A DNA stretch of 64,000 bases from an uncultured Pelagibacteraceae bacterium (GTDB lineage Bacteria; Pseudomonadota; Alphaproteobacteria; Pelagibacterales; Pelagibacteraceae). Within the stretch, counting starts at the first letter, position 1. Each line of letters begins with the position of its first letter. The stretch spans positions 62,001 to 126,000 of the forward strand of contig CACHML010000001.1 of NCBI GenBank assembly GCA_902580945.1, read 5' to 3'. The notes under the pieces were generated by a model. The model was not told where the DNA came from and did no database searches. It saw only the letters and a list, made by a program, of their open reading frames with translations. Made by a program: the position numbers and the translations under genes. This document shows, one piece after another, positions 20,396 to 39,570 of this stretch.

Positions 20396-20398
20396 AAA

Positions 20399-21430: not shown

Positions 21431-21495
21431 AAAATATAATAAAGTTATACGAAATTGAGATAAAATAAAATCTCTTTAATTTGTTAAATTTCCTC

Positions 21496-22399: not shown

Positions 22400-22433
22400 A
22401 ATTTCATTTTACACATAATTTATAAAAAAAAAA

Positions 22434-22895: not shown

Positions 22896-22916
22896 CACAC
22901 ATTAGTTTGTTAAAAA

Positions 22917-22947
22917 AAATCTCCCCCAACACAGTTGGGAGAGATTT
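22917..22947 (-). terminator. Rho-independent terminator of the TMAO/betaine binding-protein gene
   Basis: A 14-bp inverted repeat with one mismatch (22917-22930 against 22934-22947; core CCCAAC/GTTGGG, 3-nt loop) lies 20 bases past the binding-protein stop. On the minus strand it is followed directly by a T-run (complement of the A-run at 22912-22919). This is a textbook intrinsic terminator and indicates that the binding protein is transcribed alone. Confidence 0.88.
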
Positions 22948-22967
22948 AATTTTTTAGTTTTTAAAGC

Positions 22968-23915: not shown

Positions 23916-23946
23916 TATTTCCCCTTTCCTTAATATTAAGAACTAA

Positions 23947-23975
23947 ATTATCTTCTCTATTAAAGAGACAGTCAA
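23947..23975 (-). promoter_or_regulatory. Sigma70-type promoter of tmoX
   Basis: On the minus strand TTGACT (-35, 23970-23975) and GATAAT (-10, 23947-23952) are separated by exactly 17 bp. Each differs from consensus at one base. It lies about 32 bp upstream of the tmoX ATG and on the tmoX side of the palindrome at 23990-24024. By eye it is the clearest promoter in the window. Confidence 0.75.
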
Positions 23976-23989
23976 CAAGCAAAATAGAT

Positions 23990-24024
23990 ACAAATGTATA
24001 TATAAAATTTATATATAAATTTGT
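23990..24024. promoter_or_regulatory. 35-bp palindrome between tmoX and tdm (candidate operator)
   Basis: Two 17-bp arms (23990-24006 and 24008-24024) are inverted copies with a single mismatch around one central base. The outer arms read ACAAAT and ATTTGT; the inner part is TATATATAAA/TTTATATATA. It lies 15 bp upstream of the tmoX -35 box and 38 bp upstream of the tdm ATG, so a dimeric regulator bound here could control both genes. AT-richness raises the chance of accidental palindromes, but the outer ACAAAT arms make this one unusual. Confidence 0.55.
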
Positions 24025-24062
24025 TGATACTTTAATATAGTTTGGGCATATTTAAATTATAT

Positions 24063-26402
24063 ATGCAAACTAGTTTAGCAATAAAAGAACCTGGTTTAAA
24101 TGTACTACCACCTGGAGTTGAAAGATATATTGTAAATGCAGGTGGAATTACTGGAATTCAAATTTTTCCTGATGACGAAATTCAAATAATTAATAATGAA
24201 GGAAATCAAATTTGCGAAATCAATTCTTTCGATAAAAACGGAAACTCAGAATTAGGTCTTTTAAATTTAAAAGAAAATAAAAATTCTTCTGAAATAAAAA
24301 AAATACTTTTTAAAAAAGAAGAAAGTTCTATGCAGGCTTTGCTTCAACTAAACAAAAGAAATTTAAAAATTGAAAAAGCTAAGTCAGCAATATTATTTGA
24401 TAAAAATACTAAAGCTGGTGAAAAAATAAATTTAAAATCTAAAGATAAATGTTATTGCATATTTGCAGCGCCTGCAGATGACATGCTTGTTCATGATCAA
24501 AATCCACCATCAGATTTAACAATAATAATAAAAAGAGCTAAAATTAAAAATAATGATAAAGAATTTTCATTAATACCAGATCCAATTTATGATCCAGATC
24601 ATGAAGTAAATATTGATAGAAAAACTGCAACTGGCTATCAAGTCAAAGCTGGTGATTACATTCAAATTATAACACCAACAGGAAGACAGTGTTCGGACTT
24701 TGTTGCTTATGATACAGCTAAATTAGAAAAAGGTTTGGAGAGAGGTCTTGATTGGCAAACAACTAGAACTTTTATGGGTCGTACTTTTCCTGGTCCAGGG
24801 CTATATTCAAAATTTTATGACACTGATCATGAACCTTTAATAGAAGTGATAAGAGATACTGTTGGTATACATGATACATTCAACTTAGCCTGTACTTCAA
24901 AATATTATGAAGACTCAGGATATTTTGGCCATGCAAATTGTTCTGATAATTTAAATGACTCTATGGAAAAATATGGTGTAGAGAAAAAAAAAGGTTGGCA
25001 GGCGATAAATCTTTTTTTTAATACATCTGCTGGCGGTCTAAATTCAGTAACCTCTGACGAGTCATATGCAAGACCAGGTGATTATGTAATTTTTAAAGCA
25101 CTTAAAGATTTAACCTGTGGTACAACAGCTTGTCCTAGTGATATTGATAGCTGTAATGGATGGAACCCTACTGATATTTTTGTTAGAACTTATGAAAAAA
25201 GTAAAGAATTTACAAAATCTTATGGATTTAGAATGAAAACTGACTCAGAAAATAAACTTACAAGGAACACAGGGTTTTACGAAAGAACTTCTAAACTAAC
25301 TAGAAACTTTGTTGATGCTAGAGGTTTTTGGTTACCAAATGATTATACAAAACATGGGGTTATTAACGAATATAATGCTTGTAGAGAAAAAGCTGTTTTA
25401 ATTGATTTATCTTCTTTAAGAAAGTTTGAAATTCTTGGTCCTGATGCTGAAGAATTAATGAATTACACTTTAACTCGAAATGTTAAAAAACTTTCAGTAG
25501 GCCAAATTGTTTATTCAGCAATGTGCTATGAAAATGGGACCATGTTTGATGATGGCACTTTATTAAAACTTAGTGATCATGGTTTTAGATGGGTTTGTGG
25601 AGATGAGTATGGTGGGGAATGGCTTAAAGAACAGGCAAAAAAGAAAAATTATAAAGTTCATATAAAAAATTCTACAGACCAAATAAATAACCTATCTTTG
25701 CAAGGACCAAAAAGTAGAAAAATTTTAGAAAAAATAATTTTTACACCTCCTACTCAGCCCTCTATATCTGAATTGGAATGGTTTAGATTTAGTATTTGTA
25801 GATTAGAAGAATTAAATGGAATTCCATTAATTGTTTCAAGGACTGGTTATACTGGTGAACTTGGTTTTGAAATTTGGTGTCACCCAAGCGATGCACCAAC
25901 TGTTTGGGATAAAGTAATGGAAGCAGGTAAAGACGAAGGTTTGATACCTGCTGGTTTTGCTGCTTTAGATCTTTTAAGAATTGAAGCTGGTTTAATATTA
26001 TTTGGTAATGAATTTGACGGACGACAAGATCCCTTTGAAGCAGGGATCGGTTTTTCTGTACCATTAAAATCTAAAACGGAAGATTTTATAGGAAGAGAAA
26101 ACCTAATTAAAAGAAAAGAAAACCCTCAAAAAAAATTAGTTGGGTTAGAATTGATTGGTAAAGAACAAGCAAACCATGGAGACTGTGTACATATTGGAAG
26201 ATCTCAAGTTGGAGTAATTACAAGTGGGTGCATTTCACCAACACTAAATAAAAATATTGCCTTATGCAGAATAGATGTAGGTCATTCAGAAATAGGAAAT
26301 GAAGTTGAAATTGGAAAAATAGATGGTCATCAAAAAAGAATTCCAGCTAAAATTGTAGGATTTCCTCATTACGATCCTAAGAAAACTAAAGTTAGATCTT
26401 AA
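24063..26402 (+). CDS. tdm: Trimethylamine-N-oxide demethylase
   Basis: Converts TMAO to dimethylamine and formaldehyde. I chose the ATG at 24063 (779 aa) over a TTG at 24042. The N-terminal half is a DUF1989-type domain (about residues 140-380), with a cysteine/histidine-rich region (CTSKYYEDSGYFGHANC near 275 and CGTTACPSDIDSC near 352) consistent with a metal site. The C-terminal half (about 420-779) is a GcvT-like THF-binding domain with GPDAEELMNYTLTRN, TGYTGELGFEIW and RIEAGLILFGNEFDG. This two-domain layout is specific to Tdm. It is divergent from tmoX across a palindrome, and its stop overlaps the next gene by one base (TAATG). Confidence 0.92.
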   Translation: MQTSLAIKEPGLNVLPPGVERYIVNAGGITGIQIFPDDEIQIINNEGNQICEINSFDKNGNSELGLLNLKENKNSSEIKKILFKKEESSMQALLQLNKRNLKIEKAKSAILFDKNTKAGEKINLKSKDKCYCIFAAPADDMLVHDQNPPSDLTIIIKRAKIKNNDKEFSLIPDPIYDPDHEVNIDRKTATGYQVKAGDYIQIITPTGRQCSDFVAYDTAKLEKGLERGLDWQTTRTFMGRTFPGPGLYSKFYDTDHEPLIEVIRDTVGIHDTFNLACTSKYYEDSGYFGHANCSDNLNDSMEKYGVEKKKGWQAINLFFNTSAGGLNSVTSDESYARPGDYVIFKALKDLTCGTTACPSDIDSCNGWNPTDIFVRTYEKSKEFTKSYGFRMKTDSENKLTRNTGFYERTSKLTRNFVDARGFWLPNDYTKHGVINEYNACREKAVLIDLSSLRKFEILGPDAEELMNYTLTRNVKKLSVGQIVYSAMCYENGTMFDDGTLLKLSDHGFRWVCGDEYGGEWLKEQAKKKNYKVHIKNSTDQINNLSLQGPKSRKILEKIIFTPPTQPSISELEWFRFSICRLEELNGIPLIVSRTGYTGELGFEIWCHPSDAPTVWDKVMEAGKDEGLIPAGFAALDLLRIEAGLILFGNEFDGRQDPFEAGIGFSVPLKSKTEDFIGRENLIKRKENPQKKLVGLELIGKEQANHGDCVHIGRSQVGVITSGCISPTLNKNIALCRIDVGHSEIGNEVEIGKIDGHQKRIPAKIVGFPHYDPKKTKVRS

Positions 26403-26752
26403 TGCCTAAATCAACAAAAGATCTATTAGAATTTTGGGAAGATCAAATGAAGCTTTCTCATACTTCTAGTAACTACTTTTTTAGAAAATCACCTTCACAC
26501 TATCATATGATGCTGCTTGTAATGTCTGCATTTAAATTAAAACAAAATTTATCTGTCGAAGAATTAAAAACAAAATTATTTAAAACTTCACGACCAAAAT
26601 CTGCTTTAATTATTAATGAAGCGTGTGAAAAAGGGTTTTTTTATTTAGAGAAAACTTCAGAGGACCAAAGGAAAAAATATATCAAACCAAGCGCCTCATT
26701 TATTGAGGAATTTAACGATTATTTGTCCACTCTTAAAAATTTAAGTTTTTAA
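26402..26752 (+). CDS. Small winged-helix-like protein, candidate regulator
   Basis: 116 aa, translationally coupled to tdm (TAATG overlap). The middle (about residues 37-75) looks like a helix-turn-helix: LKQNLSVEELKTKLFKTSRP then SALIINEACEKGFFYLEKTS. It is followed by a MarR-like wing/dimer segment DQRKKYIKPSASFIEEFNDY, where family members have D-x-R-x3-hydrophobic-x-P-S/T. This suggests a small MarR-type DNA-binding protein, possibly controlling tdm/tmoX through the nearby palindrome. The assignment rests on pattern only; no characterised homologue is recalled with certainty. Confidence 0.55.
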   Translation: MPKSTKDLLEFWEDQMKLSHTSSNYFFRKSPSHYHMMLLVMSAFKLKQNLSVEELKTKLFKTSRPKSALIINEACEKGFFYLEKTSEDQRKKYIKPSASFIEEFNDYLSTLKNLSF

Positions 26753-26849
26753 TAGTTTGTTAATTTAAGGTTGTATAATTTTTTATTTCTAAATTTTATA
26801 TATAAAAAAAATTATATATTTAACCTTTTCCAAAAAATAATGTTTCGTT

Positions 26850-28175
26850 ATGTCATTACCGACAAAAGCTAAAGTAGTAATAGTTGGTGGAGGAATTCAC
26901 GGACTAAGTACTGCTTGGAAATTATCTGAAACATATAAAAATCCTAACGACGTTGTTGTGCTCGAGAAAAAAGATACTGCTTCTGGAGCAAGTGGAATTG
27001 CTTGTGGTGTTGTGAGAAATAATTACTTCCAACCTGCAATGAGAGAATTGATGGCCCATTCTGTGAGTATATGGGAAAGTGATGCGAAAGCTTTTAAATA
27101 TAATCCAGTTGGTTACATGCAGATTTCACCAGAAGTTATGCATAAAGATGTAGCTAGTATTTATGAACAACAAAAAGCAATAGGTTATGAATCTGTATTC
27201 GTTGAAGGTGAAAAAGATTGCATGAAATACATGAAAGGTATTTTTGATGATTGGCAAGCAAAAGGTATTACCTCTGTATTGCATGAAAAAAAAGGTGGTT
27301 ATGCTTTCAATAAAGACTCAATTAAAGCTCTTGAGAAAAAAGCAAATTCAAACGGTGTCAATGTACATAAAGGTGTAAAAGTTACTGGTTTTAAAAGAGG
27401 TAGTAACAGTAATGCAATTACGGGTGTTGTAACAGACCAAGGTACAATAGATTGCGATCAAGTAGTAATAGGTGCGGGTCCCTGGGTAAGAGACTTTTGG
27501 AATATGTTAGAACTACCAAAGACTACCGAAATAAAAGGTAAAGATGGAAAGATGCATGAAGTGGATATGTGGAAGTACTGGTTTTTACAAGAAGGAGTTT
27601 TAGGTGTTGATGCCGATTATTTAAAAACAAACGATGGTAAACCTCCTCCAGTAATTCATGTGGATACAGATGCACCTCTTTATTCAGATATGAATGGAAA
27701 ATTAATAACTGATGAACTTTGGGGAATATACTACAAACCTGATATAGAGGGATTGGGTGTGCAAGGAGGTACGTCACCTTATGTAGTACAAAAACATTTT
27801 GATCAAGTTAATGTTGATCCTTATGGAATTGAGTCACCTGAATTTCAAACAACAGATAAGTTTTCAGATATGTGGACAGCAGCATTAGCACATATTCAAA
27901 AAAGATTTGTTGGAAAATCAAACCTGTATAGAAAAGGACCATCTGGTGGCCTTGGATGTTTAACTCCTGACTCATTTCCAATTTTTGACAGATTTTTTGA
28001 AAATGTTTACATGATTGCTGATGCCAATCATGGATATAAAATGTTAGGTGTTGGTCATTTAGTTGCGCAGGAAGTTTTAGGGAAAGAAAGCGAATTATTG
28101 AAACCTTTTAGATTCAATCGATACGCGAAAGGAGAACTTCATCCAACGTCTAATAGTCCGTTTCCATGGAGTTAA
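26850..28175 (+). CDS. FAD-dependent amine oxidoreductase (DadA/SoxB-like), substrate unknown
   Basis: 441-aa flavoprotein. The FAD motif VVIVGGGIHGLSTAWKL has its glycines at residues 13-18; KDTASGASGIACGVVRNNYF and the C-terminal YMIADANHGYKMLGVGHLVA match the D-amino-acid/sarcosine oxidase beta superfamily. An extra segment (about 225-340, including DMWKYWFLQEGVLG) is not found in SoxB. It lies after tdm and 66 bp before a glutamine-synthetase-III gene, so a methylated amine or N-alkyl amino acid is the likely substrate. No delta, alpha or gamma partner gene is adjacent, so it appears to act alone. Confidence 0.8.
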   Translation: MSLPTKAKVVIVGGGIHGLSTAWKLSETYKNPNDVVVLEKKDTASGASGIACGVVRNNYFQPAMRELMAHSVSIWESDAKAFKYNPVGYMQISPEVMHKDVASIYEQQKAIGYESVFVEGEKDCMKYMKGIFDDWQAKGITSVLHEKKGGYAFNKDSIKALEKKANSNGVNVHKGVKVTGFKRGSNSNAITGVVTDQGTIDCDQVVIGAGPWVRDFWNMLELPKTTEIKGKDGKMHEVDMWKYWFLQEGVLGVDADYLKTNDGKPPPVIHVDTDAPLYSDMNGKLITDELWGIYYKPDIEGLGVQGGTSPYVVQKHFDQVNVDPYGIESPEFQTTDKFSDMWTAALAHIQKRFVGKSNLYRKGPSGGLGCLTPDSFPIFDRFFENVYMIADANHGYKMLGVGHLVAQEVLGKESELLKPFRFNRYAKGELHPTSNSPFPWS

Positions 28176-28241
28176 TTTATCTGAGTAGACAGATGTTTTA
28201 TTTTCAGTTAACTTTTTGGACTAAAAATTCTTAGGGGGAAT

Positions 28242-29711
28242 ATGACTGATCTAGAAAAACATGTAAATCAACCAGGCAGAGCAAAGTTAGTAAAAAAAGT
28301 TAGAGAAAAAATTAATGAATTAGGAATAACTTATATTTATTATCAATTTATTTCAGTAACAGGTAGAGTTGTAGGAAAAGGGATACCCGCTGATCACTGG
28401 GAAAGAACCGCAGAAAAAGGCTTTCAATTAGTTTATGGAGCAACAGCAAATTTATTTTTAGACAGGCACAACAATTACATTGGTTATGGACCTGAAGCAA
28501 TGGAACTAGTTGGAATTCCAGATCCAGAAACATTTGTTCAATTACCTTGGGATAAAAGAGTTGGAAGAGTATTTGTTACATGTTTTAGAAATAGAGAAGA
28601 GAGAAAAAATCCAGGAGGTCATTTAACTTCTGATTGCAGAGGAAATTTAAGAATTTTCATGGACGAATTTAAAAAGAAGCATGGTTTAGAATTAAGAGTT
28701 GGAACAGAGCCTGAAATGATGTGGTTAACCAAAAATGAAGATGGCACACCAACAGGAAAAGGTTTTTCAAAACCATTTTGTTATCATATAGATCAATTTG
28801 AATCATTAAGACCTGTATTTATGAAAGTAATTGAATATTCAAAGGCAATGGGTCTAGACATGATACAAGGAGATCATGAGGATGCTCCAGGACAATTAGA
28901 GCTTAATTGGACATACGATAATGTCTTGAGAAACGCTGATAGATTATCAACATATAGACAAATATGTGCTCAAGTTGCTAGAGAGCACAATCTAATAGCT
29001 TGTTTTATGACAAAACCATTTATGGGTGTATCTGCTAGCGGTTGCCATACAAACATGTCTTTATGGAAAGGTGGAAAAGTTTCAGTTAACAAGTTAGGAA
29101 ACAAAAAGCTTCCAGGTGTTGAGGAAGTCTTCAGTTATGTTTCAGGTGGAACTAATACATTTATGCCTGATACAAAAGATATGCAGTTGCCAGGAAAAAT
29201 TGGTCTACAATCAATTGCTGGTATTATGAAACACTTGCCTGCTTTAACAGCTCTTGGATCATCAACTGTAAATTCTTACAGAAGATTATGGGATCAAGGA
29301 TTTTGGGCTCCAGTTTATGCAGACTGGGGATATCAAAATAGAACATGTGGGTTAAGAGTTTCTGCTCCAGGAAGATTTGAATATAGATCAGTTGACTCAA
29401 TGCATAATCCTTATTTGCTTGGTGCGGCTTTACTCAAAGCATGTGATGAAGGTATTACAAAAAAAATGAAACCAGCAAAACCAGAATCTAGAAACATCTA
29501 TGAAGCTCAAAAAGCTGGTAAGGATGTAAAAAAATTACCTTTAAGTCTAGGAGAAGCTCTTGATAGACTTGCTGAGGATGAAGTGATCAAATCTGCAATG
29601 CCAGATGAAATGTATAAAGTCTTTCACTGGTATAAAAATGATGAGTGGGAAAGATTTCTTGGTGCAACAACTCAATGGGATCTTGATACTTATCTGGATT
29701 GTTTACCATAA
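28242..29711 (+). CDS. Divergent glutamine synthetase type III / gamma-glutamylamide synthetase-like
   Basis: 489 aa, longer than GmaS/GlnT (~440). Conserved ligase parts are present: VGTEPEMMWLTK (metal site), QGDHEDAPGQLELNW, SASGCHTNMSLWKGG, STVNSYRRLWDQGFWAP and APGRFEYRSVDSMHNPYLL. The canonical GmaS (38242-39567) shares the same blocks but has DHEDANGQFEMNW. The C-terminal ~60 residues (KAGKDVKKLPLSLGEALDRL and FLGATTQWDLDTYLDCLP) are extra. It probably ligates glutamate to ammonia or an amine, and heads mgs-like set 1. A strong AGGGGG ribosome site precedes the ATG. Confidence 0.82.
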   Translation: MTDLEKHVNQPGRAKLVKKVREKINELGITYIYYQFISVTGRVVGKGIPADHWERTAEKGFQLVYGATANLFLDRHNNYIGYGPEAMELVGIPDPETFVQLPWDKRVGRVFVTCFRNREERKNPGGHLTSDCRGNLRIFMDEFKKKHGLELRVGTEPEMMWLTKNEDGTPTGKGFSKPFCYHIDQFESLRPVFMKVIEYSKAMGLDMIQGDHEDAPGQLELNWTYDNVLRNADRLSTYRQICAQVAREHNLIACFMTKPFMGVSASGCHTNMSLWKGGKVSVNKLGNKKLPGVEEVFSYVSGGTNTFMPDTKDMQLPGKIGLQSIAGIMKHLPALTALGSSTVNSYRRLWDQGFWAPVYADWGYQNRTCGLRVSAPGRFEYRSVDSMHNPYLLGAALLKACDEGITKKMKPAKPESRNIYEAQKAGKDVKKLPLSLGEALDRLAEDEVIKSAMPDEMYKVFHWYKNDEWERFLGATTQWDLDTYLDCLP

Positions 29712-29735
29712 GGAAAAATTATAGGAGATAAAACA

Positions 29736-30680
29736 ATGTGCGGAATTGCTGGACTAATTCATAGAGGAAAATCTTCAAACGTTGGCCAAGAACTTCAAGG
29801 AATGCTTCAAGCATTAAAGCATAGAGGCGAAGACTCTACTGGTTATGCTCTTTATGGGGATACAGACGGTCAAAACTTTATTATGAGATTTAAGGTTGGT
29901 GAAAATGTTGGTGAAGGCAGTTCTTCGGTAATGGAAGATGTATCAGTTTACGATGAAAGAAAAAAAATTGTTGATAGTTATATTTCTCAAATGGGAGCAA
30001 AGATTGTTAAAGAAGAAAGAACACTACCCTATTCTCTAAGATATGAGATAGACTATGACAAAGGAGATTTGCTTGAATTTTCTCAGAAAATAGAGAGTAT
30101 TCCTGGAGTTGAAATCCTTTCAATGGGAAAATCTCTGGAAGTTATTAAAGATTTAGGTAATGCAAAAGCTGTTTGTGATAGATACAATTTAGGTGATCTT
30201 GTTGGTACTCACGCAATTGGACATGCTAGAATGGCAACAGAGTCTGGTGTAGACATTAAATCTGCCCACCCATTTTGGGGCTACCCTTTCAGTGATGTTT
30301 CGGTCGTACACAATGGTCAATTAACTAATTATTGGAATAATAGAAGAATTTTAGAAAACAAAGGAATGAGATTTATGTCAGAATGTGACTCTGAATTGAT
30401 AGCAGTCTACTTAGCAGAAAAAATGAGAAATGGAGCTACACTTGAAGAAGGTATGAAAGATAGTTTATCTGGACTTGATGGAGTATTCACTTACTTTGTT
30501 GCAACAAAAAATTCACTTGGAATGGCTAAAGACACTATGGCAGCAAAACCATTAGTTTTATATGAGTCAGATGATTTAGTTGCGATGGGATCAGAAGAAA
30601 TAGCAATCAGATCTGTTCTTCCACAAGAAATAGATACTTATGATCCATTTGATGGAGAGGTTAAAGTATGGCAAATTTAA
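29736..30680 (+). CDS. Class II glutamine amidotransferase, MgsA/GlxB-like (set 1)
   Basis: 314 aa Ntn-type amidotransferase. Cys2 (MCGIAGLIHRG) becomes the N-terminal nucleophile; ALKHRGEDSTGYALYG, GTHAIGHARMATESG and SVVHNGQLTNYWNNRR are the PurF/GltB-type glutaminase motifs. It corresponds to the glutaminase domain of glutamate synthase, split off as MgsA in N-methylglutamate synthase. The insertion at about residues 60-140 is shared with set 2. A GGAG ribosome site precedes it. The next gene starts inside its end (13-bp overlap), so these subunits are made together. Confidence 0.87.
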   Translation: MCGIAGLIHRGKSSNVGQELQGMLQALKHRGEDSTGYALYGDTDGQNFIMRFKVGENVGEGSSSVMEDVSVYDERKKIVDSYISQMGAKIVKEERTLPYSLRYEIDYDKGDLLEFSQKIESIPGVEILSMGKSLEVIKDLGNAKAVCDRYNLGDLVGTHAIGHARMATESGVDIKSAHPFWGYPFSDVSVVHNGQLTNYWNNRRILENKGMRFMSECDSELIAVYLAEKMRNGATLEEGMKDSLSGLDGVFTYFVATKNSLGMAKDTMAAKPLVLYESDDLVAMGSEEIAIRSVLPQEIDTYDPFDGEVKVWQI

Positions 30681-31522
30681 AAACAACTGAGAAAAAAACA
30701 AAAGCTCAATCAATGGGACTTCATACTGAAGTTCTTACAGGAAAAACACAACAAAAGTTTTTTAATCCAGATGAAGCAGAAAACTTTTATTATTGGGGAA
30801 CATACGATGTAGATTTTAATAAAAGAACTGAGCTTGATGTAAATGATATGGATTGCAAAGAAGCAAATAAAAAAATTGATGAATTGATGAGTCAGGGTTA
30901 TGGAACAATTGTAATAAAAAATCCTCAAGGAAAACATAGTCTAGGTGTTGGAATTTTAAATAAATTAAACTTAATTTTTGAAGGAAGTTTAGGTTATTTT
31001 GGAGTTGGCTCTATAGATGGTCCTACGGTAAGAGTTAATGGAAGAGTTGGATGGTCATGTGCAGAAAATATGATGGCTGGAAAAGTTGTAATAGAAAAAA
31101 ATGCAGGATCGTGTTTTGGGGCAGCAGTAAGAGGTGGAGATTTAATTTGCAAAGGAAGTGTTGGTGCAAGAACAGGCATTGACCAAAAAGGTGGCACAAT
31201 AATAATTGGTGGTGATGCTGGCGCTTTTACTGGATTTATGATGCAAAGAGGAAGAATAGTAGTCTTAGGTAATGTAGGTATAAACCTTGGAGACTCTATG
31301 TATGATGGAACAATCTATGTTGGGGGGAAAATTGGATCATATGGAAGTGATGCGATTGAGTCACCTATGACAAAAAGTGATATAGATTGGTTGAAAAGAA
31401 AACTTAAGGTTGCTGAAATTGGCGAAAATTTTGATGTTTCTAAAATGACTAAAGTCGTTGCGGGTAAAAAACTTTGGAATTATGACGCGTTAGAACCAAC
31501 TGAAAAAAAAGGAGCTATATAA
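30668..31522 (+). CDS. GXGXG-domain subunit, MgsB/GlxC-like (set 1)
   Basis: 284 aa, corresponding to the C-terminal GXGXG beta-helix domain of glutamate synthase. Repeated glycine-rich turns are visible: VRVNGRVGWSCAENMMAGKV, GSCFGAAVRGGDLICKGSVG, IIIGGDAGAFTGFMMQRGRI and LGNVGINLGDSMYDGTIYVG. An N-terminal extension of ~60 residues is absent from the set 2 copy. It should form a complex with the flanking amidotransferase and FMN subunits. It overlaps both neighbours (13 bp and one base). Confidence 0.87.
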   Translation: MANLKTTEKKTKAQSMGLHTEVLTGKTQQKFFNPDEAENFYYWGTYDVDFNKRTELDVNDMDCKEANKKIDELMSQGYGTIVIKNPQGKHSLGVGILNKLNLIFEGSLGYFGVGSIDGPTVRVNGRVGWSCAENMMAGKVVIEKNAGSCFGAAVRGGDLICKGSVGARTGIDQKGGTIIIGGDAGAFTGFMMQRGRIVVLGNVGINLGDSMYDGTIYVGGKIGSYGSDAIESPMTKSDIDWLKRKLKVAEIGENFDVSKMTKVVAGKKLWNYDALEPTEKKGAI

Positions 31523-32916
31523 TGGCAAAAAAGAAAAATGGAAAAACAAATGGTCATTCTAATGGCAATGGTCAAAGTGAATTTTCAAAAAGAAATAAAA
31601 GTTTATTAGGTTATAATTCAATATTTACTCCAGAAGTAATAGACGACATACATATAAAAGCGCAACTAGGTAGATACAGAATGCGTGGTATGGCGCTAAT
31701 GAAAAAAATTCCTACATTTGATGATCTAGTATTTTTGCCTGGTACACTTACAAGATTTGTAATCGAAGGTTATAGAGAAAAATGTGAAACTAAAACTGTT
31801 ATAGGACCAAGATGTGAAAATCCAGTTGAACTTGATATTCCAGTTTACATTACTGGAATGAGTTTTGGAGCTTTATCTTATGAAGCTAAGACTGCATTAG
31901 CTAGAGGTGCTACGATGGCAGGAAGTGCAACATGTTCTGGTGAAGGAGGAATGATTCCAGATGAAAGAAGATATTCTGAAAAATGGTATTACCAATGTAT
32001 TCAATCAAGATATGGTTTTAATCCACATCATGCACAACTCGCAGATGGAATAGAAGTCTTTATTGGACAAGGTCAAAAAGTTGGAATGGGTGGTCACTTA
32101 ATGGGTCAAAAAGTTACTGACCAAGTAGCAGAAATGAGATCATTACCTGCTGGTATAGACCAAAGGTCTCCTGCTAGACACCCTGATTGGTTAGGTCCGG
32201 ACGATTTAGCATTAAAAGTTCAAGAACTAAGAGAACTAACAAAAAATAAAGTTCCAATTCAATTAAAACTTGGAGCAGCAAAAGTTTATGATGATGTTCG
32301 TATGGCAGCAAAATGTGATCCCGACTCAATTTACCTAGATGGTATGGAAGGATCGACAGGTGCGGGTCCTCACATAGCAGCAGCAAACACAGGAATTCCT
32401 GGGATAGCCGCTATTAGAGAAGCACGAAGAGCAATCGATGATGTTGGCAAAACTGGAAAAGTAACACTGATATACGCAGGTGGTGTAAGAGATGGTGCTG
32501 ACATGGCTAAAGCGCTTGCTCTAGGTGCAGATGCAATTGCTATAGGAACTGGAGCAATGATAGCATTAAATTGTAATAAAGAAATTCCTGAGTCAAATTT
32601 TGAGAAAGAGATGGGAGTTCCAGCAGGTCACTGTTATCACTGCCACACAGGTCGTTGTCCAGTTGGTGTTGCAACACAGGATCCTAAACTTAGAAAAAGA
32701 TTAAATCCTGATGATGCAGCTTTGAGAGTTTATAATTACCTACATACAATGACTTTAGAAGCTCAATTATTAGCAAGAGCATGTGGTAAAACTAATATTC
32801 ATTCATTAGAACCTGAGGATTTAGCAGCTTTAACAATGGAAGCTTCTGCATTAGCAAAAGTACCACTTTCTGGAACAAATCATACTGTTGGAGTTGATGA
32901 TTTTCATAAAATTTAA
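31522..32916 (+). CDS. FMN-binding glutamate synthase-like subunit, MgsC/GlxD-like (set 1)
   Basis: 464 aa TIM-barrel FMN domain like the synthase domain of GltB. Motifs: ITGMSFGALSYEAKTALARG, CSGEGGMIPDE, IEVFIGQGQKVGMGGHLMGQ, DGMEGSTGAGPHI and YAGGVRDGADMAKALALGAD. The cysteine cluster CYHCHTGRCPVGVATQ near residue 370 keeps three cysteines placed like the [3Fe-4S] ligands of glutamate synthase. A low-complexity N-terminus (KKKNGKTNGHSNGNGQSE) precedes the fold. The product is uncertain: N-methylglutamate synthase or a related N-substituted glutamate synthase. Confidence 0.87.
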   Translation: MAKKKNGKTNGHSNGNGQSEFSKRNKSLLGYNSIFTPEVIDDIHIKAQLGRYRMRGMALMKKIPTFDDLVFLPGTLTRFVIEGYREKCETKTVIGPRCENPVELDIPVYITGMSFGALSYEAKTALARGATMAGSATCSGEGGMIPDERRYSEKWYYQCIQSRYGFNPHHAQLADGIEVFIGQGQKVGMGGHLMGQKVTDQVAEMRSLPAGIDQRSPARHPDWLGPDDLALKVQELRELTKNKVPIQLKLGAAKVYDDVRMAAKCDPDSIYLDGMEGSTGAGPHIAAANTGIPGIAAIREARRAIDDVGKTGKVTLIYAGGVRDGADMAKALALGADAIAIGTGAMIALNCNKEIPESNFEKEMGVPAGHCYHCHTGRCPVGVATQDPKLRKRLNPDDAALRVYNYLHTMTLEAQLLARACGKTNIHSLEPEDLAALTMEASALAKVPLSGTNHTVGVDDFHKI

Positions 32917-32918
32917 TT

Positions 32919-33323
32919 ATGCCTAAAAAGAAAAACAAAAAAGCAAAAAAAGAAACTAAAGGTCAATTAGGTAAGAAAAAAGAGACTGCTAGAGAAAAAA
33001 TGATAGGTCAAACTATTGGCTATCGTTATGATGTTAACCTGCTTCCAGACTATTCAAGAATTACACCATTCTTAAAAAAATACATAGAAGCAATGGGATG
33101 GGATGATTTAAATTGGTTAGAAGATGTTCACATGGGATATGAAGAAGATAGACCTGCAGTTTTTGACAGAAATGCTAATGGGTGGGTTACAATTCCAAAG
33201 AAGATTAAACTTCCAAATAATCAACAAGATAGAGATATGATTGCCAGAGAATTGTTAGTAAAATTCCAAATGTCTCCAAATCATCCACTAGTAGATCTTA
33301 AGAAAGCTTACAGAAAATTCTAG
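32919..33323 (+). CDS. Conserved-looking basic protein of unknown function in mgs-like set 1
   Basis: 134 aa, starting two bases after the FMN-subunit stop, so part of the same operon. The first ~35 residues are almost entirely lysine/charged (KKKNKKAKKETKGQLGKKKE). The rest is a compact domain with several tryptophans and acidic residues (YIEAMGWDDLNWLEDVHMGY, NANGWVTIPKKIKLP). I recognise no domain. Set 2 has no counterpart, so it may be a specific subunit or regulator of the set 1 synthase. Confidence 0.7.
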   Translation: MPKKKNKKAKKETKGQLGKKKETAREKMIGQTIGYRYDVNLLPDYSRITPFLKKYIEAMGWDDLNWLEDVHMGYEEDRPAVFDRNANGWVTIPKKIKLPNNQQDRDMIARELLVKFQMSPNHPLVDLKKAYRKF

Positions 33324-33457
33324 AATCACTGAAAATTTATATATACCAGAGGTTGTTCTCTGCAAAATAAACAACATTTATCAAATATAATTTAAGATTG
33401 ATCATGTTGTTCCATTTATTAATATTTATTTAATTTGTTTAAACAATTGGAGGTTAA
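33324..33457 (+). promoter_or_regulatory. Leader/promoter region of the ammonium transporter gene
   Basis: A 134-bp gap ahead of amt, the largest in this plus-strand array. It contains an 8-bp inverted repeat (AACAACAT at 33370-33377 and ATGTTGTT at 33404-33411, 26-base spacer), an AATATAATT element at about 33384-33392 that could be a -10 box, and a strong GGAGG ribosome site at 33449-33453. No clear -35 box was found. The repeat could be an operator or a leader stem for nitrogen control. Confidence 0.4.
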
Positions 33458-34861
33458 ATGACTGACGAACTAGGTGCATTGACAACCATATTTACAGAAT
33501 TTTACTATTGGATAACAGTAGTACTTATGTTTCTGATCCACGTAGGATTCTGTATGTATGAAGTTGGAGCATCGCGTTACAAACACCACCAACATACACT
33601 AATGAAAAATACAATGCTGATACCTTTGGTAACAGTAACTTGGTTTTTGTTTGGTTGGTGGATTTATTGGGCTTTTCCAAATGGCCCAGGTCTTGCAACA
33701 TCTATAATTCCAGATATTGGTGATGGACTAATAACTGGAGGAGATTATGGTGGAAATACTTTAGCAAGTCCAACAAGTGAATATATGGCTATAACATTAA
33801 ATGATCGTCTTATGGGTGTCTTTTGGGCAGCTTTCCTTTTATTCTCTTGGACAGCCGCATCGATAGTATCTGGTGCAGTTATTGAGAGAATTACAACTTT
33901 TGCATTTGGAATTCTTGCAATTGCAATCGGATCTGTATTTTGGAGTATAGATGCTGCATGGGGATGGCACTTTGATGGATGGATGTTAAAAATACTTGGA
34001 TATCATGATGCATATGCATCGGGGGTAATTCATGCTGTAGCAGGAGGATTTGCTTTAGGTGTGCTTGCTGTATTAGGTCCAAGAATTGGAAAATTTTCAT
34101 CAAGTGGTGAACCAAGAAATATAGGACCAAGAAATCCTTGGTTAGTAACTGTAGGATTATTTTTAATTTATACAGGTTTTTGGGGTTTTTACGCAGCTTG
34201 TAATGTTCCAATTTATGACCTTGGACCAGAATATGGTATGGAGGGCGTAACTTTCTTTACTGCCACAAATATCTATCTAACCCCAACGACATTGGGTGGT
34301 ATCACTATGAACTTTTTAATGTCATTATCTGGAGGATTATTAGCAGGATATGTAATATCGAAAGGTGACCCTTTCTGGACTTACTCTAGTGGACTAGCTG
34401 GAATAATATGTGCTTCAGCAGGTAACGACCTATATCATCCTATTCAATCTTTAATTATAGGAATGATAGGTGTTGTTATTGCTTACAAAATGCATTACTG
34501 GGTTGAACGAAGGTTCAAAATTGATGATGCTGTTGGTGCTGTAGCTGTACATGGTTATGCTGGATTTGCAGGACTTGTAATTTGTGGTTTTGTTCTTAAT
34601 GGTTATCCATCATCAGGCTATGATGTTGGTGCTATGTGGGATGGAACTAATTACGCTGCAATAAATCCTTTAGGAATGTTTATTGGTGCGATAATCATGT
34701 TCTTTGTTCTAGGAATGATACCAGGTTACATAATTGCTAAAGTGTTAAATGGAATGGGCAAACTTAGAATCCCTAGGGAGGTTGAGTTGGCTGGTTTAGA
34801 CTACCAAATAATGGAGGAGGCAAAAGAAGATGAAAAAACTGTTGCTTCTTCAACTAGTTAA
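33458..34861 (+). CDS. amt: Ammonium (methylammonium) transporter, Amt family
   Basis: 467 aa with about 11 TM helices. The two pore histidines of the family are visible in SGVIHAVAGGFALG (near residue 193) and VAVHGYAGFAGLVICG (near residue 366), and the substrate-site aspartate in GYHDAYASGVIH. The sequence is divergent from enteric AmtB, including the N-terminal half (FWWIYWAFPNGPG-like segment). It stands between two mgs-like modules, so methylammonium or another small ammonium compound is as plausible as ammonia. No glnK/PII gene accompanies it; instead a tiny membrane protein gene follows. Confidence 0.88.
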   Translation: MTDELGALTTIFTEFYYWITVVLMFLIHVGFCMYEVGASRYKHHQHTLMKNTMLIPLVTVTWFLFGWWIYWAFPNGPGLATSIIPDIGDGLITGGDYGGNTLASPTSEYMAITLNDRLMGVFWAAFLLFSWTAASIVSGAVIERITTFAFGILAIAIGSVFWSIDAAWGWHFDGWMLKILGYHDAYASGVIHAVAGGFALGVLAVLGPRIGKFSSSGEPRNIGPRNPWLVTVGLFLIYTGFWGFYAACNVPIYDLGPEYGMEGVTFFTATNIYLTPTTLGGITMNFLMSLSGGLLAGYVISKGDPFWTYSSGLAGIICASAGNDLYHPIQSLIIGMIGVVIAYKMHYWVERRFKIDDAVGAVAVHGYAGFAGLVICGFVLNGYPSSGYDVGAMWDGTNYAAINPLGMFIGAIIMFFVLGMIPGYIIAKVLNGMGKLRIPREVELAGLDYQIMEEAKEDEKTVASSTS

Positions 34862-34872
34862 AGGAGGAAAAT

Positions 34873-35106
34873 ATGGCTACAGTGAGTAATTGGATAGAAC
34901 ATTTAACCGCTGCAAGCAATGCAGATGGAGTAGCAGGACCAATTTTTCCAGGTGCCGGATCTGAAGGTATCTTAGTTATAATACTAGTTATAATTTGGAT
35001 TGGTTGGACAGTTATAAGTTCTAGGCAAGAAAGCGATAAACTAGAAAAACTTGCTAGAAGAAGGCCTAGTTCTAATGCTTGGAAAAGCAATATAACTGAT
35101 GGTTAA
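34873..35106 (+). CDS. Small single-TM protein downstream of amt
   Basis: 77 aa with a very strong AAGGAGG ribosome site. One TM helix lies at about residues 36-54 (GILVIILVIIWIGWTVIS). A charged tail follows (SRQESDKLEKLARRRPSS). It is 11 bases after the amt stop, so cotranscribed. It could be a small accessory or regulatory subunit of the transporter. The strong ribosome site and tight coupling support a real gene; no family is recognised. Confidence 0.7.
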   Translation: MATVSNWIEHLTAASNADGVAGPIFPGAGSEGILVIILVIIWIGWTVISSRQESDKLEKLARRRPSSNAWKSNITDG

Positions 35107-35117
35107 ATAAATCTTGA

Positions 35118-35146
35118 TAAGGGCGCATTATATTTATGCGCCCTTA
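35118..35146 (+). terminator. Strong GC-rich hairpin after the amt unit
   Basis: Perfect 11-bp inverted repeat (TAAGGGCGCAT, 35118-35128, and its complement, 35136-35146) with a 7-nt loop, 11 bases after the small-protein stop. It is the most GC-rich stem in the window. No U-run follows; instead the ATG of a 52-codon ORF occurs 7 bases later, so the stem could also restrict that ORF's translation. Confidence 0.7.
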
Positions 35147-35153
35147 AATAATC

Positions 35154-35312
35154 ATGGAAGAAAAAGATAAAGAAAATCAAATAAATAAAACACCTAGTAA
35201 AATGTCAAGAATAGCATGGCCAAAAGCTAAGTATGGTGTCTATGCCGCAATCATTATTATTGTTATAATCAATGTGCTTTACTATAAAGACCAATTATTA
35301 TCACTACTTTAA
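35154..35312 (+). CDS. Very small single-TM protein (52 aa) ahead of mgsA
   Basis: A short ORF of 52 codons plus stop fills most of the space between the amt hairpin and mgsA. The first ~26 residues are hydrophilic and basic (MEEKDKENQINKTPSKMSRI). A single TM helix follows (YGVYAAIIIIVIINVLFY), then a short tail. The next gene starts 9 bases later. The TM-like composition and exact fit to the gap argue for a real gene, but there is no clear Shine-Dalgarno, so confidence is moderate. Confidence 0.5.
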   Translation: MEEKDKENQINKTPSKMSRIAWPKAKYGVYAAIIIIVIINVLYYKDQLLSLL

Positions 35313-35321
35313 AATTTTTTT

Positions 35322-36200
35322 ATGTGTGGCATTGTTGGTATTTATTTAAAATCAAAAAAATTTGAAAAATCCTTAGGTGGAATGCTCTCTAAAATGTTAG
35401 TCAGTATGGAGTCTAGGGGTCCAGACAGTGCAGGTTTTGCTATATACAACAAAGATAAAAATAAAATATACAAGTACTCAATTTGTTTAAATGAAATGAG
35501 TTTTGAAAGATTTAGAAAAGAAATTAAAAAAAAAATTAAATTAACTAAATTAGATAAAAATTCAGACCACGTAATTTTAAAATCTACTGAAAAACCGAGT
35601 AAAATTGTGCCTATTTTAGAGGATTTTAAGGAAATATCATTAGTAGGTTACGGAAAATCTATCGAAATTTTTAAACAAGTTGGCAAACCAAGCAATGTTG
35701 TCAAAAAATTTGATCTCAATAAATTTTCGGGCTCTCACGCTATAGGTCATACAAGAATGGCTACTGAAAGTGCAATTACTACAGATGGATCTCACCCCTA
35801 CTCTACAGGAGAAGACGAATGTTTAGTTCATAATGGTTCATTATCTAATCATAATAATTTAAGAAGAAAGTTAAAAAAGAATGGATCAAAATTTAATTCA
35901 GATAATGATACAGAAGTTGCAGCCGGCTATATTTCAAATAGTTTGAAAGATAGAAATTTAAAACAAACATTAAAAAAAGGTTTGAGTGACCTTGATGGGT
36001 TTTATACTTTTATTGCAGGAACACATAGTGGTTTTGCTATCCTTAGAGATGAGATAGCCTGTAAGCCAGCAGTTATTGCTGAAACAAAGGACTATGTAGC
36101 AATTTCCTCAGAATTTCAAGCAATGGCACATTTGCCAAATGTTAATAGTGCAAAAATTTTTGAACCAGAACCAGGCGTCGTTTATTCTTGGGGTAAATAA
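35322..36200 (+). CDS. mgsA: N-methylglutamate synthase subunit A (glutamine amidotransferase class II)
   Basis: 292 aa. Cys2 nucleophile in MCGIVGIYLKS; glutaminase motifs SMESRGPDSAGFAIYN, GSHAIGHTRMATESAITTDG and CLVHNGSLSNHNNLRRKL. Homologous to the set 1 copy at 29736 but ~20 residues shorter. The order mgsA-mgsB-mgsC-gmaS is that of characterised gamma-glutamylmethylamide pathway clusters, which supports the name. The enzyme moves methylamine nitrogen from gamma-glutamylmethylamide to form N-methylglutamate. The stop overlaps mgsB by one base. Confidence 0.85.
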   Translation: MCGIVGIYLKSKKFEKSLGGMLSKMLVSMESRGPDSAGFAIYNKDKNKIYKYSICLNEMSFERFRKEIKKKIKLTKLDKNSDHVILKSTEKPSKIVPILEDFKEISLVGYGKSIEIFKQVGKPSNVVKKFDLNKFSGSHAIGHTRMATESAITTDGSHPYSTGEDECLVHNGSLSNHNNLRRKLKKNGSKFNSDNDTEVAAGYISNSLKDRNLKQTLKKGLSDLDGFYTFIAGTHSGFAILRDEIACKPAVIAETKDYVAISSEFQAMAHLPNVNSAKIFEPEPGVVYSWGK

Positions 36201-36880
36201 TGTTACTTGATTTAAAAAAATTAAAATTAAGATCTGTAAATGAAAAATTACAAAATATTGATAGAAAAAAAAATAAAAGAGACTTTGTTATTTCAAATCC
36301 AGAGGGTAACCATGCTGTTTGCGCAGGTTTAACAGATAACATAGATGTAACTATAAAAGGACATGTTGGATATTATTGTGCTGGGATGAATCAGAATGCA
36401 AATATAACAGTTGAGGGAAATGTGGGAACAGGAGTAGCAGAAAATATGATGTCAGGCAATGTTCATGTAAAGGGAAATGCATCACAATCAGCAGGCGCAA
36501 CCGCACATGGTGGAACATTAATAATCGATGGTGATACTAGTTCAAGATGTGGAATTTCAATGAAAGGTATAGATATAATAGTTAAAGGATCTGTAGGTCA
36601 CATGTCAGCATTTATGGCTCAGTCTGGAAACCTTGTTGTTTTTGGTGATGCAGGCGAAGCTTTAGGTGATAGCTTGTATGAAACAAATATATATGTAAAA
36701 GGAAAAGTAAAATCTTTAGGAGCAGATTGTGAAGAAAAAAAAATGAATAAACAACACAAAATAAAATTAAAAGAACTTTTAAAAAAAGCTGGGTCAAACA
36801 TTAAACCAGAGCAATTTAAAAGATATGGCTCAGCAAGAAAGTTATATAATTTTAATATTGATAATGTATCTAACTATTAA
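36200..36880 (+). CDS. mgsB: N-methylglutamate synthase subunit B (GXGXG domain)
   Basis: 226 aa; a beta-helix GXGXG subunit with AENMMSGNVHVKGNASQSAG, ATAHGGTLIIDGDTSSRCG and FMAQSGNLVVFGDAGEALGD. It lacks the ~60-residue N-terminal extension of the set 1 paralogue. It lies between mgsA (one-base overlap) and mgsC (2-bp gap). Scaffold/channel function is inferred from glutamate synthase. Confidence 0.85.
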   Translation: MLLDLKKLKLRSVNEKLQNIDRKKNKRDFVISNPEGNHAVCAGLTDNIDVTIKGHVGYYCAGMNQNANITVEGNVGTGVAENMMSGNVHVKGNASQSAGATAHGGTLIIDGDTSSRCGISMKGIDIIVKGSVGHMSAFMAQSGNLVVFGDAGEALGDSLYETNIYVKGKVKSLGADCEEKKMNKQHKIKLKELLKKAGSNIKPEQFKRYGSARKLYNFNIDNVSNY

Positions 36881-36882
36881 TT

Positions 36883-38202
36883 ATGAAAAATAAAACTCAC
36901 CCACGTCAATCTTGGACTTTTGATGAATACACTAATTCAGAGATTAGAAGAGCAGCTGAAACAGGAATTTATGATATCCGAGGCGGAGGCTCAAAAAGAA
37001 AACTTCCACATTTTGATGATTTGTTATTCTTAGGTGCTTCAATGTCTAGATATCCTTTAGAAGGATATAGAGAAAAATGTACTACAAATGTAAAATTAGG
37101 AACTAAATACGCCAAAAAACCTTTGGAACTTGATATCCCAATTACAATTGCGGGAATGAGCTTTGGCGCTTTGTCAGGTCCAGCTAAAGAGGCATTGGGT
37201 AGAGGAGCAAGTGAAGCTGGCACATCTACAACTACCGGAGATGGAGGAATGACACCAGAAGAAAGAGGTCAATCTAAAAATTTAGTTTATCAACTTTTAC
37301 CTTCAAGATATGGAATGAATCCAAATGACTTGAGGAAAGCAGATGCAATTGAGGTAGTGATAGGCCAAGGGGCAAAACCAGGTGGTGGTGGAATGTTACT
37401 AGGACAAAAAATAGATGATCGTGTTGCAGAGATGAGAACTTTGCCAAAAGGAATTGACCAAAGATCTGCGTGTCGTCATCCCGATTGGACAGGCCCAGAT
37501 GATCTAAAAATAAAAATTCTAGAATTAAGAGAAATTACTAAATGGAAAGTTCCAATATTTATAAAAATTGCAGGTGCTAGACCTTATTATGATACTGCTT
37601 TAGCTGTTAAAGCAGGTGCAGATGTTGTTGTACTAGATGGTATGCAAGGTGGTACAGCAGCTACTCAAGAAGTATTTATTGAAAATGTCGGACAACCAAC
37701 TTTAGCCTGTATAAGACCTGCTGTAGATGCATTGCAAGATTTAAATTCACATCGAGAAGTCCAGCTTATTATTTCAGGTGGAATTAGGAACGGTGCAGAT
37801 GTTGCAAAAGCTCTTGCTTTAGGTGCAGATGCGGTATCAATTGGAAGTGCAGCAATGATTGCAATTGGTGATAATGATCCTAAGTGGGAAAAAGAATATG
37901 AAAAACTTGGAACTAAAGCTGGAGCATATGATGATTGGCATGAAGGTAACGACCCTGCAGGAATTTCAACTCAAAATCCAAAATTAATGAAAAGACTAGA
38001 TCCAAAAAAAGCAGGTAGAAAACTTTCAAATTATTTAAAAGTAATGTCTCTTGAAGCACAAACAATAGCTCGAGCCTGTGGAAAAAATAGTCTTCATAAT
38101 TTAGAGCCAGAAGATTTATGTGCATTAACTGTTGAGGCTGCGGCGATGGCCAGAGTTCCTTTAGCTGGAACTAACTGGATACCAGGTATTGAAAAGAAAT
38201 AG
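36883..38202 (+). CDS. mgsC: N-methylglutamate synthase subunit C (FMN glutamate synthase-like domain)
   Basis: 439 aa FMN TIM barrel: IAGMSFGALSGPAKEALGRG, TTGDGGMTPEE, IEVVIGQGAKPGGGGMLLGQ, DGMQGGTAATQE and ISGGIRNGADVAKALALGAD. At the place where glutamate synthases and the set 1 paralogue have a three-cysteine [3Fe-4S] motif, this protein has AYDDWHEGNDPAGISTQ with no cysteine, so it cannot carry that cluster. Position directly before gmaS supports MgsC. It is ~25 residues shorter than the set 1 copy because it lacks the low-complexity N-terminus. Confidence 0.85.
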   Translation: MKNKTHPRQSWTFDEYTNSEIRRAAETGIYDIRGGGSKRKLPHFDDLLFLGASMSRYPLEGYREKCTTNVKLGTKYAKKPLELDIPITIAGMSFGALSGPAKEALGRGASEAGTSTTTGDGGMTPEERGQSKNLVYQLLPSRYGMNPNDLRKADAIEVVIGQGAKPGGGGMLLGQKIDDRVAEMRTLPKGIDQRSACRHPDWTGPDDLKIKILELREITKWKVPIFIKIAGARPYYDTALAVKAGADVVVLDGMQGGTAATQEVFIENVGQPTLACIRPAVDALQDLNSHREVQLIISGGIRNGADVAKALALGADAVSIGSAAMIAIGDNDPKWEKEYEKLGTKAGAYDDWHEGNDPAGISTQNPKLMKRLDPKKAGRKLSNYLKVMSLEAQTIARACGKNSLHNLEPEDLCALTVEAAAMARVPLAGTNWIPGIEKK

Positions 38203-38241
38203 TTATTGATACTTATAAAATAATTCGTAGTATATTTATGA

Positions 38242-39567: not shown

Positions 39568-39570
39568 AGT

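Follow-up and report, generated by a model that had tools for sequence, protein, structure and literature searches.

What does a second amine-processing gene set do beside a canonical methylamine pathway in a SAR11 genome? The question is raised by a 64,000-nucleotide stretch of DNA, here called the window (contig CACHML010000001.1, positions 62,001 to 126,000, forward strand; assembly GCA_902580945.1), from an uncultured member of the Pelagibacteraceae (SAR11). The genome (G000; 1.23 Mb in 31 contigs) is SAR11-type in its gene content and its relatives. A block of genes in the window runs in the order Tdm, p116, FAD enzyme, GS1, A1, B1, C1, p134, and Amt, followed by the set 2 genes MgsABC and GmaS. 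GS1 to p134 (28242-33323) constitute set 1. The original prediction of two paralogous sets 2.0 kb apart is borne out, each gene lying where it had been placed. We propose that the FAD enzyme and set 1 are probably a six-gene module that degrades dimethylamine (DMA), an indirect, glutamate-bound replacement for DmmABC.

In the proposed route, GS1 would use ATP to join DMA to glutamate, giving gamma-glutamyl-dimethylamide. A complex of A1, B1, C1, and p134, resembling N-methylglutamate synthase and GOGAT (glutamate synthase), would free the amine from the amide and couple it reductively to 2-oxoglutarate, yielding N,N-dimethylglutamate. The sarcosine-oxidase-like FAD enzyme would take one methyl group off N,N-dimethylglutamate to give N-methylglutamate, and the SoxBDAG/Mgd enzyme would take off the second to give glutamate, both methyl groups entering the tetrahydrofolate pathway. 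Because set 1 is linked to Tdm and mutually exclusive with the DMA monooxygenase, we infer that its substrate is quite likely DMA. For each intermediate the balance tips only slightly in favour, and a putative function for p134 and a putative source of electrons complete the scheme. Our estimate for the route rests mainly on the linkage, the exclusion, and the pocket residues of GS1.

Tdm converts trimethylamine N-oxide (TMAO) to DMA. In the window, Tdm (24042-26402, + strand) consists of DUF1989 and GcvT parts (PF09347, PF01571, and PF08669) and scores 1102.8 bits against the NCBIfam equivalog NF053776 (cut-off, 1100). In a survey of 197 Pelagibacteraceae genomes, in which GS1 is counted at ≥82% identity including partial matches and Tdm at >400 bits, GS1 occurs in 66 genomes, Tdm in 62, both in 60, and one without the other in 8. 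Four of the 8 discordant genomes (G088, G188, G121, and G049) have a contig end beside the module. HODM (PF11927), the monooxygenase alpha-subunit family, is found in none of the 197 genomes and has no match in G000.

The same linkage is seen in an even sample of 385 alphaproteobacterial genomes. A C1 orthologue (≥77% identity) occurs in 38 of them, Tdm in 34, and strong HODM (>100 bits) in 46, three more genomes having HODM matches of 51-59 bits. Set 1 and Tdm occur together in 27 genomes (Fisher test, P = 2e-26). The 34 genomes with Tdm comprise 27 with set 1, 5 with strong HODM, 0 with both, and 2 with neither. The zero overlap of set 1 and strong HODM among them corresponds to a P value of 7.5e-5 by genome and 0.0016 by family (13 vs 4 of 18 families). 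These P values are approximate, since related genomes are not independent. GS1 is not found in the 7 Tdm genomes that lack C1, where the best match is short (43% identity) and the best full-length-like match is 33% identical. In one HODM-type genome (G446), the genes of Tdm, Tmm, GmaS, MgsABC, Amt, GcvT, and HODM are clustered; this is the same kind of cluster with HODM in place of set 1.

The linkage and the exclusion bear on a problem in the literature. Passages of Lidbury et al. 2017 state that no SAR11 representative has dmmDABC and that multiple other marine bacteria also lack it, report no evidence that SAR11 can oxidise DMA, and propose a metabolic bottleneck at which DMA accumulates and escapes to the air as an aerosol precursor (PMC5520151). 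According to a passage of another paper, HTCC1062 grows weakly with TMAO as sole nitrogen source without dmmDABC, and a DmmDABC 'isoenzyme' is supposed there (PMC8918994). The proposed module resembles DmmDABC (HODM) in its place after Tdm and in ending at a substrate of the N-methylglutamate route. It differs from DmmDABC in having no heme oxygenase; HODM above 100 bits occurs in 0 of the 38 set-1 Alphaproteobacteria, and weak matches in 2 of the 38.

GS1 (28242-29711, + strand; PF00120) is a 489-aa GmaS-like amine:glutamate ligase and the proposed DMA ligase. It scores 295.2 bits against TIGR03105 (GmaS, type III glutamate-ammonia ligase), below the cut-off of 469.6, and forms its own clade in the tree, apart from GmaS. 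In RhGmaS, the amine pocket is described as consisting of residues Y147, Q175, D177, E179, E186, N188, and K30' together with flap residue Trp300, whereas ammonia-using glutamine synthetases (GS) have Asp50' and a flap Glu (PMC7948447, in part). GS1 possesses the pocket residues and the flap Trp of GmaS. In an alignment of 156 GS1 sequences, Y181, Q209, D211, E213, E220, N222, and W355 are present in 156/156 and K46 in 154/156, the other two rows being gapped. GS1 differs from GmaS in a fixed Ile at Y174, a fixed Pro at N182, and a shorter flap; the Tyr at 174 is kept in 74/74 GmaS sequences. In three MAFFT alignments that include the GlnA of the genome, the Asp50 position is Val in GS1 and Ala in GmaS, whereas one HMMER alignment places D74 of GS1 there; GS1 probably lacks the Asp50 of ammonia-using GS. 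The values of Km tabulated for GmaS are 16.07 x 10^3 for DMA and 8.72 x 10^3 for ammonium chloride, in a unit that is presumably micromolar (PMC7948447, in part). A GS fold can therefore take DMA, if poorly.

The original prediction was that set 1 and the FAD enzyme form a distinct route of glutamylation, transfer, and oxidation for an amine other than methylamine; neither DMA nor Tdm figured in it. Judged by sequence, this prediction gains support: GS1 combines a GmaS pocket with fixed differences, GS1 forms its own clade, and the neighbouring FAD enzyme is of the sarcosine oxidase type. The prediction would fail if the synthetase used ammonia only. The Trp in place of the flap Glu speaks against such a use, and the part of the argument that relies on Asp50 stands as probable.

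It is improbable that set 1 instead serves another amine (ethanolamine, taurine, or other alkylamines) or assimilates ammonia. In favour of such functions, 11 set-1 genomes of the alphaproteobacterial sample lack Tdm, an Amt-family gene is next to set 1 in SAR11, and plasmid relatives of GS1 occur in surroundings where other amines are likely substrates. These closest plasmid GS relatives, in Ruegeria and Paracoccus, are 52-53% identical to GS1 and adjoin cytochrome P450 or aldehyde dehydrogenase genes together with type 1 glutamine amidotransferase (GATase) genes. The link to Tdm and the exclusion pattern are left unexplained by other amines. Assimilation of ammonia by set 1 as a GS-GOGAT pair with Amt is rejected on the basis of the GmaS pocket, the Trp flap with the probable loss of Asp50, and a separate full-length GltB elsewhere in the genome. 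The GltB-type match in G000 lies in an open frame of 1521 aa, and frames mostly of about 1500 aa are found in most of 50 chosen SAR11 genomes (47 of the 66 set-1 genomes, some of them incomplete, plus G152, G017, and G051).

On the two plasmids, of Paracoccus sp. TOH (L035) and Ruegeria sp. SCSIO 43209 (L036), the GS1 relative adjoins a second, strongly divergent GS-like protein of 435-439 aa. Genes for a P450 or a flavoprotein, for an aldehyde dehydrogenase, and for a type 1 GATase are further neighbours; perhaps this is another amine pathway with paired GS-like proteins. In plasmid records, p134 has no match, matches to C1 are all below 60% identity, and no annotated copy of the module is found.

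The FAD enzyme (26850-28175, + strand; PF01266, 119.5 bits) is an amino-acid oxidoreductase of the DAO family and the proposed N,N-dimethylglutamate demethylase. It falls below the cut-offs of 25 listed NCBIfam families, soxB and soxA_mon among them, the best being TIGR01373 (74.7 bits; cut-off, 529). By sequence and by fold, the latter searched with a model of predicted local distance difference test (pLDDT) 89, its nearest solved relatives are sarcosine oxidases, together with proline dehydrogenase, dimethylglycine oxidase, and dimethylglycine dehydrogenase. In the Sox family, Arg, Tyr, and Lys anchors are said to hold the substrate carboxylate (PMC12582975). The FAD enzyme has the corresponding residues in addition to the DAO domain: R56 and K397 are invariant in 127/127 sequences and Y59 in 34/34, the equivalence being taken from an alignment to the oxidase beta subunit and the R-x-x-Y spacing rather than from a superposition. 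It thus shares the fold and the carboxylate anchors of the sarcosine oxidase/dimethylglycine oxidase family; it differs in that its identity in the listed structural alignments is at most 20% and in having no folate-binding domain.

Because the carboxylate anchors are kept, the FAD enzyme is expected to act on an N-methyl amino acid and not on DMA itself. It is conceivable that the FAD enzyme demethylates free DMA to monomethylamine (MMA), which GS1 and A1-B1-C1 then handle; the nearness of its gene to Tdm, its presence in 33 of the 38 set-1 genomes, and three genomes without GmaS above the cut-off, in which GS1 could be the MMA ligase, fit such a scheme. We regard this scheme as unlikely, given the retained R56, Y59, and K397 of amino-acid oxidases and the fact that, of the 50 listed fold relatives, those with a name have amino acids as their substrates. 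The three genomes (G463, G368, and G244; one genus, 81-86% complete) have Tdm, the FAD enzyme, and set 1, and their lack of GmaS is compatible with the proposed DMA route, since demethylation by way of N,N-dimethylglutamate would allow it.

A1, B1, and C1 of set 1 have the three-subunit make-up of MgsABC, namely a class II GATase, a GXGXG subunit, and an FMN Glu_synthase domain. A1 (29736-30680, + strand; PF13522 and PF13537) is the 314-aa GATase subunit with Cys2; 150 of the 164 sequences extracted carry the motif MCGI close to their N-terminus. B1 (30668-31522, + strand; PF01493) is the 284-aa GXGXG subunit. Its predicted N-terminal extension is real, B1 being 58 aa longer than its set 2 counterpart B2 with an alignment that starts at residue 81 vs 29, which amounts to ~52 residues. 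C1 (31522-32916, + strand; PF01645, 301 bits) is the 464-aa FMN subunit, and the low-complexity N-terminus noted for it is evident in its sequence. Its three conserved cysteines, at 371, 374, and 379, are present in 178 of 179 aligned rows, the remaining row being gapped, and lie close to what is the Fe-S region in GltB. C1 has its FMN domain and a Cys-rich stretch in common with GOGAT (GltB); set 1 differs in that its domains are split over three genes, and a full GltB is encoded elsewhere in the genome. These cysteines were considered as a mark that separates C1 from MgsC and were dropped, as five set-2 MgsC sequences (L053, L076, L097, L147, and L171) also have them; the set-2 MgsC of the window and the MgsC of Paracoccus aminophilus lack them.

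The last gene of set 1 encodes p134 (32919-33323, + strand), an orphan protein of 134 aa without a Pfam or NCBIfam family. A fold search against the PDB with a model of pLDDT 78 gives chance-level matches (best E value, 2.1). p134 is a probable extra subunit of the A1-B1-C1 complex.

Set 2 (35322-39567, + strand) starts 2.0 kb beyond set 1 and is canonical, with the order mgsA-mgsB-mgsC-gmaS. It encodes MgsA (35322-36200; 292 aa), MgsB (36200-36880; 226 aa), MgsC (36883-38202; 439 aa), and the 441-aa gamma-glutamylmethylamide synthetase GmaS for MMA (38242-39567), which scores 624.3 bits against TIGR03105, above the cut-off, and has RhGmaS (7cql) as its closest solved chain. The paralogues are 29% (GS1/GmaS), 29% (A1/A2), 38% (B1/B2), and 51% (C1/C2) identical. 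With these low identities and the trees, a recent duplication of one set from the other, which would have undermined the prediction of a separate function, is excluded. C1 forms its own clade (support 99/97) that spans all phyla sampled, apart from the MgsC clade (100/99), although the tree tool warns of long branches beside both. With its separate clade and 51% identity to C2, C1 is not an orthologue of known MgsC. Some clusters encode GATase, GXGXG, and FMN proteins that are neither C1 nor typical MgsC: L270 (G197) and L273 (G506) are long branches of the tree, and L160 and L191 match C1 at 41-42%.

Set 1 had been regarded as the odd, second, non-canonical module of the pair; the survey reverses these roles. 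The comparison covers 60 fetched SAR11 loci in which GS1 is complete (that of the window excluded, some ending at contig ends). A1 and B1 occur in all 60; the counts are 59 for each of the FAD enzyme, C1, p134, and Amt, 56 for GmaS, and 55 for Tdm. The order Tdm-FAD-GS1-A1-B1-C1-p134-Amt is conserved. A2, B2, and C2 are each present in just 11 of the 60. A whole-genome search of the 50 chosen genomes finds set-2 MgsC (≥73% identity) in 14, all but one of them with set 1 (13); in 34 of the 47 set-1 genomes, some of them incomplete, the canonical MgsC is not found. Since C2 is rare and set-1 genes are near-universal in the loci, set 1 is the core SAR11 module and the canonical MgsABC set is accessory. 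The set-2 MgsC sequences of SAR11 do not form a single clade but two, a pattern suggestive of two or more gains, and the window's MgsC groups with that of P. aminophilus.

Because no other such complex is found there, the A1-B1-C1-p134 complex in most SAR11 must probably also act on the gamma-glutamylmethylamide made by GmaS. This overlap raises a further reading, in which set 1 is a second MMA route, GS1 being another GmaS, A1-B1-C1 another N-methylglutamate synthase, and the FAD enzyme a monomeric N-methylglutamate oxidase. The shared pocket residues of GS1 and GmaS are consistent with it, as are the 34 of 47 set-1 SAR11 genomes in which set 1 is the sole complex of the N-methylglutamate synthase type found, with GmaS in 56 of 60 loci, and one genome (G423) that has C1 with GmaS and without GS1. 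We consider a second MMA route doubtful. GmaS lies beside GS1 in those 56 loci and is present in 30 of the 38 set-1 Alphaproteobacteria, which would be odd for an isozyme in streamlined genomes, and neither the link to Tdm nor the exclusion of the DMA monooxygenase is explained.

Two genomes serve as natural experiments on the DMA route and its MMA rival. In G423 (98% complete), A1-B1-C1-p134 are behind GmaS, which takes the place of GS1, and GS1 and the FAD enzyme are found nowhere in the genome. This counts in favour of the DMA route and would be expected if the complex could serve MMA with GmaS and if GS1 and the FAD enzyme belonged together. G152 has neither set 1 nor Tdm, yet the MMA genes MgsABC-GmaS are intact, which supports the DMA route and argues against set 1 as an MMA route. 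In the 429-base gap between the FAD gene and MgsA of G152 there is a decayed GS1 remnant with five stops (L108, 13077-13504).

Several observations weigh against the DMA route. For four discordant SAR11 genomes (G025, G038, G050, and G126; 65-78% complete), a contig end offers no explanation. Tdm is missing in 11 of the 38 set-1 Alphaproteobacteria, and among Tdm genomes, set 1 and HODM are both missing from G528, while G453 lacks set 1 and shows just a weak HODM-like match. Weak HODM-like matches are also present in two set-1 genomes, G226 and G530 (51 and 59 bits). Over all 385 genomes the absence of overlap between set 1 and HODM is weaker (P = 0.006), and Tdm and HODM show no association (P = 0.58), the latter because many HODM-family genomes lack Tdm. 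The FAD enzyme is missing in 5 of the 38 set-1 genomes, is present in the set-1-free Tdm genome G354, and is kept in G152, which the model does not explain. A HMMER alignment puts D74 of GS1 at the Asp50 position, and of the 156 rows, 122 have Asp and 33 have Asn at this residue. With the alignments in conflict, the loss of Asp50, first taken as proof against ammonia, is weakened and kept as probable; our estimate for the route is unchanged by this. We know of no precedent for a GOGAT-like complex that cleaves a tertiary amide or reductively couples a secondary amine. That SAR11 uses DMA is, moreover, a prediction from genes.

Set 1 is an old, conserved module that, on the sequence evidence, is not specific to SAR11. 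Its C1 has orthologues of 77-94% identity in Alpha-, Beta-, and Gammaproteobacteria, in SAR324, and in bins labelled as other phyla. In 36 other Alphaproteobacteria, GS1 accompanies C1 in 34 of the 35 loci with upstream room and p134 in 32 of the 32 with downstream room; of the 19 loci flanked by 7.5 kb on either side, 9 contain Tdm, Tmm, or TmoX and 16 contain the FAD enzyme. A wider scan of public genomes yields at least 590 stretches that encode C1 relatives, of which the best 80 (83-94% identity to an alphaproteobacterial C1) were kept. These 80 carry the labels Alpha-, Beta-, Gamma-, and Deltaproteobacteria, SAR324, Acidobacteria, Gemmatimonadota, and Latescibacterota; phylum labels of metagenome bins may be wrong. 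Among them, GS1 is present in 61 of 63 with upstream room and p134 in 76 of 76 with downstream room, and in the long loci Tdm, Tmm, or TmoX is present in 22/36 and the FAD enzyme in 22/36. Formate-tetrahydrofolate ligase, SoxBA, and Amt recur as neighbours of set 1, which fits a release of one-carbon units. GntR/FCD regulators are encoded by 5 of 10 neighbouring open reading frames (ORFs) tested.

The module can be matched to a named strain. In G026, the p134 match ends at 1245728 (stop codon excluded) and the Amt match starts at 1245857, and a published table for HTCC1062 places the interval from SAR11_1309 to SAR11_1310 (amt) at 1245732-1245856 (PMC2704228). Because these coordinates agree, G026 is HTCC1062 or a near copy, set 1 corresponds to SAR11_1305-1309, with GS1 as SAR11_1305 and p134 as SAR11_1309, and the FAD enzyme corresponds to SAR11_1304. 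SAR11_1305 appears as glnT in an annotation (PMC5069961, in part). In passages of Sun et al. 2011, SAR11_1304 is a predicted monomeric sarcosine oxidase, possibly for unknown substrates, SAR11_1313-1315 are proposed as N-methylglutamate synthase, and an operon class of the SoxBDAG/Mgd type is described for HTCC1062 (PMC3160333).

Other genes of the window fit in around this block. Upstream, SoxB-, SoxA-, and SoxG-like ORFs (310-5416, - strand), named from ORF content, are candidates for MgdABCD, the N-methylglutamate dehydrogenase; a SoxD shorter than 120 aa would escape the ORF listing. A Tmm-like monooxygenase (15422-16750) and a TmoXVW-like ABC transporter (18242-23915) are named from ORF reading. 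Between Tdm and the FAD gene is a 116-aa ORF, p116 (26402-26752, + strand), without a Pfam or NCBIfam match and possibly a small regulator; it is present in 42 of the 60 SAR11 loci, and in most others the FAD gene directly follows Tdm. Amt (33458-34861, + strand; PF00909; corresponding to SAR11_1310) is a divergent member of the ammonium transporter family (TIGR00836, 178 bits; cut-off, 343) that may carry or import methylated ammonium. HTCC1062 is listed with a further amtB, SAR11_0818 (PMC2704228, in part). Directly behind gmaS is a diaminopropionate ammonia-lyase-like gene (39571-40719), seen in 36 of the 60 fetched loci, some of which are too short to show it. An Rfam search of 22000-41000 gives no match.

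The known system closest to the proposed one is the GmaS-MgsABC-MgdABCD pathway, with which it shares a GS-family ligase, a complex of GATase, GXGXG, and FMN parts, and flavin-dependent N-demethylation that releases one-carbon units; it differs in the separate clades of GS1 and C1, in p134, in a monomeric FAD demethylase, and in the tie to Tdm. A literature search for dimethylglutamate, glutamyl-dimethylamide, and DMA with GS or GOGAT finds no description of the route among open-licence papers. On balance, we favour the reading that set 1 and the FAD enzyme are an undescribed, widespread secondary-amine pathway that needs no monooxygenase, as DMA would be carried on glutamate and demethylated in the form of N,N-dimethylglutamate. 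SAR11, SAR324, and many uncultured marine Gamma- and Alphaproteobacteria would then degrade DMA mainly in this way, and the complex would have in p134 a new subunit of no known structural class.

If so, a secondary-amine branch would be added to the glutamate-bound methylamine pathway, and bacteria without dmmDABC could complete the breakdown of TMAO and trimethylamine (TMA). In many of these organisms the proposed DMA bottleneck may then not exist, and metagenome estimates that derive DMA consumption from dmm genes would be too low. The question of DMA concerns some of the most abundant bacteria of the ocean, and set 1 would supply the missing step of TMAO and TMA degradation in SAR11.

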